Source: Flavobacteriales bacterium (GTDB lineage: Bacteria; Bacteroidota; Bacteroidia; Flavobacteriales_D; Sanyastnellaceae). From it: a DNA stretch of 64,000 nucleotides. The notes below the pieces were generated by a model. That model worked only from the letters and a program-made list of their open reading frames with translations, was not told where the DNA came from and made no database searches. Every line of letters starts with the position of its first letter. Within the stretch, counting starts at the first letter, position 1. Where the stretch lies: positions 1 through 64,000 of the forward strand of contig PKEB01000005.1 in NCBI GenBank assembly GCA_002863125.1. Direction: 5' to 3'. This document shows, in pieces, positions 42,763 through 44,965 of this stretch. The translations under genes and the position numbers were made by a program.

Positions 42763-43149
42763 TCAATCTCGGGTATACGGCAATGGACCTACGGGCACAT
42801 CAGTACCAGGAGTAACATATGTTACGGTAATCCGCGCACCCTTTTCACCTGCGTCGACAAGCAATCGCTGTCCATCATAAATCTCGACAGAGTATAGCGT
42901 ATTTGCCGAAACCTGCAGAAGGCTCAGAATCTCTTTGTTCTGGTCATCCATAACACGAACGACTCCACCTGACTCTGCGGTTTGAATAAGAGCAAGTGCC
43001 GGCAGAAACGGGGCGGGTATGTCATCTTGGCCCGGGCCTCCCCCAGTTAGTAACCAAGAGCCCTTCGGCGGGATTTCAATCGTCACAGGCCCTTGGCCTG
43101 CGACCGCCTGAGCCCAGCTGAAAATGGATAACAAAAGAATTAGGCGCAT
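42763..43149 (-). CDS. Small secreted protein, unknown
   Basis: 128 residues with a signal peptide (MRLILLLSIFSWAQAVAGQ). The mature part is beta-rich with a Gly-rich turn (LLTGGGPGQDD) and a C-terminal VTYVTPGTDVPVG. No family recognised. It is 35 bp downstream of the tetR gene in the same direction, so it may belong to the alkB-tetR unit. Confidence 0.65.
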   Translation of the reverse strand: MRLILLLSIFSWAQAVAGQGPVTIEIPPKGSWLLTGGGPGQDDIPAPFLPALALIQTAESGGVVRVMDDQNKEILSLLQVSANTLYSVEIYDGQRLLVDAGEKGARITVTYVTPGTDVPVGPLPYTRD

Positions 43150-43184: not shown

Positions 43185-43850
43185 CTACGCGGACAAACGA
43201 CCGGAAACGAGCTCTTTTGCGGCTTTGGACAGGTACGGCTTGAGCACCGTGAATATGTGGCTAATCCCCTTATACCTTAGCGTACTACCCTCTGCTTCGG
43301 GGTATTTCTTGTGGGAGAAGTCCATCCAATACCGACCCAACACAAGAATGATTTCCGATACTGCTTGTGGATCTTCTATTCTGAAGTTGAGAAGACCGTG
43401 CTTTGCCGCGTGCAGCATACGCCCTTCTGTCCAACCATCCAAGAAGTCATTGATTGCTTGCACCTTCACCAGCTCAGAATCTTCCGCCTTGAGCAGGGTG
43501 TTGAAGTCATCCCGCAGCAAATAGCGGAAGTCCCAAATAACATCATACGAACGAAAAATGCCGTCGATAATGACCGTTGCATCGTCCGAATCTGCTGAGG
43601 TATTTTCTAACGCGAAGACAGTCTGAAGCAACTCCATGTGGGCCGCCAGAATATCTTTTTTTGAGCGAAAATGGTACCATAGCGTACCCTCCAAAACGTC
43701 CGCATGCTCAGCGATTGAAGCGGTGGTGACCGCTCCGAACCCGCGCTGATTAAATAACACGAGACTCGTTGCTAAGATTTGGTCGCGCGTTTTCTTCGAG
43801 AACAGATCGAGGGTTCCCGGCGTCAACATCCCACTTGTGGCGTCAGTCAT
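43185..43850 (-). CDS. TetR family transcriptional regulator, probable repressor of alkB
   Basis: 221 residues. The N-terminal helix-turn-helix is ILATSLVLFNQRGFGAVTTASIAEHADVLEGTLWYHFRSK (about 25-65 region), followed by an all-helical ligand domain with HMELLQTVF and DFNTLLKAEDSEL. It overlaps the alkB stop by 8 bp, so it is co-expressed with the monooxygenase. Two matching palindromes in the alkB promoter make autoregulation in response to a hydrocarbon or fatty acid likely (inference). Confidence 0.9.
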   Translation of the reverse strand: MTDATSGMLTPGTLDLFSKKTRDQILATSLVLFNQRGFGAVTTASIAEHADVLEGTLWYHFRSKKDILAAHMELLQTVFALENTSADSDDATVIIDGIFRSYDVIWDFRYLLRDDFNTLLKAEDSELVKVQAINDFLDGWTEGRMLHAAKHGLLNFRIEDPQAVSEIILVLGRYWMDFSHKKYPEAEGSTLRYKGISHIFTVLKPYLSKAAKELVSGRLSA

Positions 43851-44898
43851 GAGCGAGTTGCGGCTTCATTTGCGCGGGGACGCGCGGATTCATAACGTAG
43901 AACCAAAGCGGCGGCACTAAGCTCAACAAGATGGAGGCCGGATAGCCCAGCGGTAACGTGGGGGTCTCCGCGTGGCTGTTCAGTACTTGGTACTTTTTGG
44001 CCGACTTGAAATGGTGGTCGCTGTGACGGGTCAACTCATACAAAACGATTCGGCCGATGTGCGAATTGGAATTCCACGAGTGGTACGGCTGCACACGTTC
44101 GTATCGACCGGATTCCAATTTGTGCCGAAGCAGCCCGTAGTGTTCGATGTAGTTGATGCTTTCGAGGAACAAAAATGCGAGAACCCCTGCCCCTAACGCG
44201 AACACCATCGTTTCAAACGAGAACACATACCAAACCGCACCCAAGTAAGCAGGCTGGATGAGGTGGTACCACAGCATGTCGTTTTTGGGGGAAAGGAAGG
44301 ACAGCTTTTGGCGCTTGAGCAACTGCGCCTGGAGTCGCCACGCATTGATGTATTGCTTGGTGACCGAAGTGAACCAAAAACCATAGACCGTCTGGTTGTA
44401 CCGAGCTGTGGCGCCATCTTCAGGTGTGGCCACGTTCATGTGGTGACCAAAATTGTGCTCGATGAAGAAGTGCATGTACAAGCACGGCATGTAAAGCAAC
44501 TTGCTCACCAAGCGCGCCGGCAATTCGGCACGGTGCCCCAACTCGTGGGCCACATTGATGCCATTGGTTGCCAGAAGGATACCGGCAGACAGCAACAACC
44601 CCACCACCTCGTAGGTGGCATATGTATGGGTTTGGACTTGGAAGAAAAAGAAGGCCATCAACCCAAAAACAATCGGCACATTGGCATACAGCATCGCATC
44701 GAAAATCCACATCCGGTTCTTCTTCACCGCTGTGTCATTATCCAAATTCGCAGCACTCCCGCCAGCGACGAGGTCCAACACGGGCAAGATGACAAAGGCA
44801 TAAATCACAGCCGAATAGGTCCAGATTCCTGTCGAATCAAACGAGAGGTAGGCCGACACTGGAACCGTATAGGCAAGGAGGTACTTGAGGTCTTTCAT
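43843..44898 (-). CDS. alkB: AlkB-type membrane alkane 1-monooxygenase
   Basis: 351 residues with about six membrane helices. The four His signatures of the membrane fatty acid desaturase/hydroxylase family are complete: HELGHR (118-123), EHNFGHH (147-153), NYIEHYG (249-255) and RHSDHH (291-296). The NYIEHYGLLR form is diagnostic of AlkB hydroxylases. It hydroxylates terminal carbons of medium-chain alkanes using a di-iron centre, and needs rubredoxin and rubredoxin reductase; neither is encoded in this window. Followed by an overlapping tetR gene; preceded by two palindromic operators. Confidence 0.93.
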   Translation of the reverse strand: MKDLKYLLAYTVPVSAYLSFDSTGIWTYSAVIYAFVILPVLDLVAGGSAANLDNDTAVKKNRMWIFDAMLYANVPIVFGLMAFFFFQVQTHTYATYEVVGLLLSAGILLATNGINVAHELGHRAELPARLVSKLLYMPCLYMHFFIEHNFGHHMNVATPEDGATARYNQTVYGFWFTSVTKQYINAWRLQAQLLKRQKLSFLSPKNDMLWYHLIQPAYLGAVWYVFSFETMVFALGAGVLAFLFLESINYIEHYGLLRHKLESGRYERVQPYHSWNSNSHIGRIVLYELTRHSDHHFKSAKKYQVLNSHAETPTLPLGYPASILLSLVPPLWFYVMNPRVPAQMKPQLAHD

Positions 44899-44910
44899 GT
44901 ATTACAACTA

Positions 44911-44934
44911 CGTCTTGGGTGTTTACCCAAGACG
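44911..44934. promoter_or_regulatory. Operator 1 of alkB-tetR (10-bp inverted repeat)
   Basis: CGTCTTGGGT and ACCCAAGACG separated by GTTT, a perfect palindrome with 10-bp arms. It covers the expected transcription start of alkB. It shares the core TTGGGT-N4-ACCCAA with operator 2, 34 bp away centre to centre. Confidence 0.8.
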
Positions 44935-44965
44935 CAAAGTAACCCCATTTGGGTAAATACCCAAA
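44935..44965 (-). promoter_or_regulatory. alkB promoter
   Basis: On the minus strand, TTTG at 44965-44962 (-33 element), then 20 bases, then TACTTTG at 44941-44935 (-7 element, one base short of TAnnTTTG). The -33 lies inside operator 2, and the start point falls inside operator 1. Confidence 0.6.
44948..44965. promoter_or_regulatory. Operator 2 of alkB-tetR (8-bp inverted repeat)
   Basis: TTTGGGTA and TACCCAAA separated by AA, perfect 8-bp arms, with the same TTGGGT-N4-ACCCAA core as operator 1. It overlaps the -33 element of the alkB promoter. Confidence 0.8.

Follow-up and report, generated by a model that had tools for sequence, protein, structure and literature searches.

The alkB-tetR operon analysed here very probably (we put the probability at about 0.85) carries a local, autoregulated circuit, in which the TetR-family protein encoded by the second gene would repress both genes through two palindromic operators at the promoter; TetR binding, repression, the ligand and the substrate of the enzyme are inferred. 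The circuit type itself is already known; what is specific is the operator code of a Bacteroidota alkB regulator, and in the open literature we found no earlier description of the operator sequence or of a Bacteroidota alkB TetR. The original prediction had proposed a self-contained, autoregulated alkane switch. The self-contained, autoregulated part is supported by a conserved operator core, by exact sites that are confined to the locus, and by a promoter geometry that recurs; the alkane part stands as putative.

Layout of the locus and its operators

The window is the whole stretch of DNA analysed, positions 1 to 64,000 of the forward strand of contig PKEB01000005.1, from the 2,274,441-base (2.27-Mb) genome of a Flavobacteriales bacterium (GCA_002863125.1; Sanyastnellaceae). 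The features at issue, in window coordinates, are as follows.

43185–43850, minus strand: tetR, TetR-family regulator, 221 aa (PF00440 and PF13972)
43843–43850, minus strand: overlap of alkB stop and tetR start, ATGACTGA, 8 nt (sequence read at the locus)
43843–44898, minus strand: alkB, membrane di-iron monooxygenase, 351 aa (PF00487 match)
44911–44934, no strand assigned: proximal operator, CGTCTTGGGT-GTTT-ACCCAAGACG (25/28 loci)
44929–44930, minus strand: predicted transcription start, inside the proximal operator (from the 4–5 nt rule, PMC6847099)
44935–44942, minus strand: predicted −7 element, TTACTTTG (from spacing; an imperfect match to TAnnTTTG, one base off)
44948–44965, no strand assigned: distal operator, TTTGGGT-N4-ACCCAAA, TTTGGGTA-AA-TACCCAAA (core unique in the genome together with its proximal partner; 28/28 loci)
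44962–44965, minus strand: predicted −33 element TTTG, within the distal operator (TTTG-to-TA spacing of 20–21 nt across loci; consensus from PMC6847099)

The tetR gene adjoins alkB and is likely cotranscribed with it, as the two genes overlap by 8 nt and the pair is kept in 24 genomes; the offset between them is the same in most family loci. The overlap is confirmed and makes translational coupling, which had been asserted outright in the original prediction, plausible. Both operators lie within the 92-bp gap preceding alkB, between the stop codon of a codirectional upstream gene (44991, about 25 nt before the distal operator) and the alkB start (44898). At the other end of the operon, 35 nt past tetR, a 128-aa ORF (42763–43149, minus strand) with a signal-like N-terminus and without a Pfam match is kept in three relatives and may be a third operon gene.

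The two palindromes said to bracket the promoter were found exactly at 44911–44934 and 44948–44965, and the core they were said to share, TTGGGT-N4-ACCCAA, is exact in both and occurs nowhere else in the genome. A scan of all 2,274,441 bases for the exact 16-mer returned 2 copies in total, at 44915–44930 and 44949–44964, where about 0.14 sites are expected by chance for 12 fixed bases in a genome of this size; a reversed-pattern control returned 0 matches in the genome. The predicted separation of 34 bp holds centre to centre and corresponds to 13 bp edge to edge. In the proximal operator, CGTCTTGGGT-N4-ACCCAAGACG, conservation is limited to the inner TTGGGT-N4-ACCCAA. With a looser 18-mer and up to 3 mismatches, this genome gave 104 matches vs 99 for the control, which is background, and a wider regulon in the same genome was rejected on that basis.

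The tetR product has the N-terminal helix-turn-helix and all-helical ligand domain of the TetR family, with PF00440 and PF13972 above cut-offs, and its AlphaFold model (pLDDT 90) has the TetR fold and matches TetR structures. The best matches in both sequence and fold, 3nnr (Marinobacter) and 3rh2 (Shewanella), are uncharacterised TetRs of solved structure with an identity of only 23–27%. The recognition-helix region, LEGxLWYH, is invariant across 21 relatives.

Co-occurrence of the operators with TetR

The AlkB protein served as the sole query against 114 family genomes, and a TetR alignment was run against 399 genomes of the order; because the family set was picked by protein, the operator count is unbiased. 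AlkB matches were present in 77 of the 114 family genomes and an orthologous TetR (E below 1e-90) in 24, from three genera. All 24 carry a related AlkB, more than about 66% identical, alongside tetR (fragmented in G098 and G099), and an exact operator core stands just ahead of alkB in 23 of the 23 genomes with upstream DNA; the upstream DNA of the 24th, G052, is cut by a contig end, so that this genome is out of the operator count. Those 23 genomes hold 42 exact sites, 38 at alkB vs 4 elsewhere. No operator was found on the alkB contig in the 53 genomes that bear only distant, uncoupled AlkBs (about 38–57% identical).

When species genomes were scanned for the operator pair, at least 21 Bacteroidota loci were returned, and 18 of the 21 listed are at alkB or tetR; one of these 18 is from a record labelled no further than 'bacterium'. 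At least five such loci fall outside the family, by their record labels in Lewinella (L063), Bacteroidetes AG-390-M23 (L095), Flavobacterium SCGC AAA160-P02 (L144) and Flavobacteriaceae (L147 and L077); these five, having been selected by operator pair, support the link to alkB-tetR and not a rate of operator conservation. Over all 28 loci of alkB-tetR type (23 in the family and five outside), the distal operator is present in every one and the proximal operator in 25, the three that are without it (L019, L021 and L022) not forming a single clade on the TetR tree. The expectation in the original prediction that the operator core would be conserved beside orthologous alkB-tetR pairs is thus borne out in every readable family pair and in five loci elsewhere in Bacteroidota.

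Comparison of loci whose AlkBs are less than 75% identical shows operator arms that are 95.5% identical and spacers that are 55% identical over their four bases, vs 26.5% (chance level) for the 20 bases upstream and 31% for the last 14 bases before the ATG. The contrast between arms and flanks indicates that selection, rather than recent common descent, has kept the sites alike. Across loci, the consensus is yTTGGGT-[GA][TA]TT-ACCCAAA.

The adjacency of TetR is no proof of binding, and TetR proteins can act in trans; the sites could, in principle, bind another regulator encoded elsewhere, with the adjacent TetR acting on something else. The distribution of the sites makes this quite improbable: there are no further site copies in the genome, the presence of the operator tracks TetR across the 114 genomes, and the operator stays with TetR even at a locus with the opposite gene order and a different AlkB. 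That last case is a Flavobacteriaceae MAG (L077:2983-6290), in which the operator pair precedes tetR-alkB-aldehyde dehydrogenase, with tetR first; its TetR is 38% identical and keeps the recognition region as LEGTLWYH, and its AlkB is differently related.

In the class-wide TetR search (395 genomes), only the genome of the window itself was matched at 1e-25, and in the order-wide search (399 genomes) strong matches were confined to this family, and the system is therefore narrow in its distribution. We rejected the use of the operator pair as a marker for alkB in general, the same 12-base core pair being repeated around different spacers in Legionella, Rahnella, Hafnia and others. In these records (L035–L151), TTGGGTN4ACCCAA occurs as tandem and dispersed repeats with spacers CATG, CGCG and TGCC; these probably belong to families of palindromic repeats that have nothing to do with alkB.

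Promoter geometry and the proposed repression circuit

Relative to the consensus for the Bacteroidota primary sigma factor (TTTG at −33 and TAnnTTTG at −7), the −33 element here is exact, the spacing is 20–21 nt, and the −7 element is one base off; the latter can alternatively be read as TACTTTGC at 44941–44934. In F. johnsoniae, the promoter is TTTG/TANNTTTG with the start 4–5 nt past the −7 element, and the −33 motif is generally weak (PMC6847099). Across loci, the first bases of the distal operator on the alkB strand are TTTG or differ from it by a single base, and 20 or 21 nt separate them from the TA of the −7 element (for L022, this spacing was read by hand from the upstream sequence); the −7 box in other loci, at the same spacing, is TAnnTTGC or an exact TAnnTTTG. 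Inverted-repeat operators overlap the putative alkB promoter as had been predicted, with the −33 TTTG inside the distal operator and the predicted start inside the proximal one, and this geometry recurs across species.

The distances between operator centres vary from 28 to 39 bp, so that a promoter element, and not dimer–dimer contact, seems to set the position of each operator. Co-operative contact between two dimers is not needed, as these distances are off a single helical phase.

In the circuit that we propose, TetR, the product of the operon's second gene, would bind TTTGGGT-N4-ACCCAAA as a dimer. At the distal operator, which holds the −33 TTTG, binding of TetR and of RNA polymerase would involve the same bases and thus be competitive; the proximal operator, over the start point, would provide a second block; and repression would hold down the expression of alkB and tetR alike. 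The ligand that loosens TetR would be lipophilic, most likely a product of alkane oxidation (a fatty acid or a fatty alcohol, a guess made by analogy with AlkX and AlkU); it would turn both genes on, and the extra TetR so made would close the operon again once the ligand had been consumed.

Palindromes at this position could instead act as RNA and control translation or read-through, either as hairpins of the alkB leader or as a terminator for the gene upstream. The minus-strand RNA of the 68-nt stretch does fold unusually well (z = −6.4), and the codirectional gene ends about 25 nt ahead of the distal site. Nevertheless, what is conserved is sequence rather than pairing: the longer 10-bp stem present here (CGTC/GACG) is not conserved beyond the inner sequence, and in two loci position 7 changes from T to C with the partner A unchanged, which would break the RNA pair. 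In addition, neither hairpin is followed by a T-run on the transcribed strand, the predicted start inside the proximal palindrome would leave neither hairpin whole in the main transcript, and the upstream gene is not the same from locus to locus. We rejected the RNA reading on these grounds, despite the good folding, and consider it slightly less probable still than binding by another regulator. Least probable of all is activation, in which TetR would act from the distal site in a ligand-dependent way and the proximal site would serve as a brake. Activators do occur in the TetR family (PMC6921075), but the site kept in every locus lies across the −33 element and the second, usual one covers the start, positions that fit repression and not activation.

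Repression by TetR at alkB has precedents. AlkX, of M. tuberculosis and Dietzia, was shown by experiment to be a TetR repressor of alkB whose binding is weakened by palmitic acid (PMC9430723). In AlkX-alkB-rubAB, the TetR-family gene lies downstream in the alkB locus, as here, and its protein represses the alkB operon; the autoregulated feedback reported for Dietzia AlkX (PMC9430723) has a proposed counterpart here. The present locus differs from the AlkX circuit in belonging to Bacteroidota, in being without rubredoxin genes, and in having tetR directly overlap alkB. AlkU, a TetR repressor in the alk operon of Rhodococcus jostii RHA1, likewise represses alkB by experiment and has two inverted repeats at the alkB promoter (PMC6921075), but those repeats, GATTTacAAATC and ACAAATcTtcAtATTTGT, have other sequences and other positions than the operators described here, and the AlkU operon contains rubA1A2B. 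The likeness to AlkX and AlkU would accordingly be one of function, not of orthology, with an operator of its own in the present system.

The operator code would make alkB-tetR operons of this type recognisable from DNA alone, would flag uncultured, mostly marine bacteria whose AlkB is without a recognisable rubredoxin, and offers a candidate biosensor part that would work with Bacteroidota promoters.

AlkB and its electron supply

Residues 20–341 of AlkB match the solved alkane 1-monooxygenases 8f6t (E 7.7e-65) and 8sbb. Aligned to 8f6t, the protein carries the di-iron histidine motifs (HELGH, EHNxGHH, NYxEHYG and RHSDHH); like the two solved AlkBs it belongs to the same sequence family and retains NYIEHYG. 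In contrast to those AlkBs, it is encoded in a genome without a rubredoxin partner: a search with PF00301 for a rubredoxin, fused or separate, found none in this genome and none in 113 of the 114 family genomes, whereas a control search found PF00301 in 7 of 14 reference genomes. The result leaves the electron supply, and hence activity on alkanes, unexplained, and alkane hydroxylation by this AlkB is therefore putative. Dokdonia MAGs enriched on 13C-hexadecane are also without AlkG and AlkT (PMC10654063), and so the lack of a rubredoxin does not exclude AlkB activity; Bacteroidota AlkB may use another electron donor.

A wider reading, which we regard as possible but doubtful, is that the regulator and its operator form a module that is particular to marine Bacteroidota and goes with AlkBs of more than one type (mostly as alkB-tetR and once as tetR-alkB-aldehyde dehydrogenase) and controls a rubredoxin-independent AlkB, the true substrate of which would perhaps be biogenic lipids or hydrocarbons, not petroleum alkanes.

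Within the family, AlkBs fall into two classes, one coupled to tetR and with operators (24 genomes) and the other distant, uncoupled and without operators (53 genomes). At two loci, G098:C16 and G099:C6, alkB lies in pieces, in different frames, beside an intact tetR and operators, representing either a pseudogene or an assembly error.
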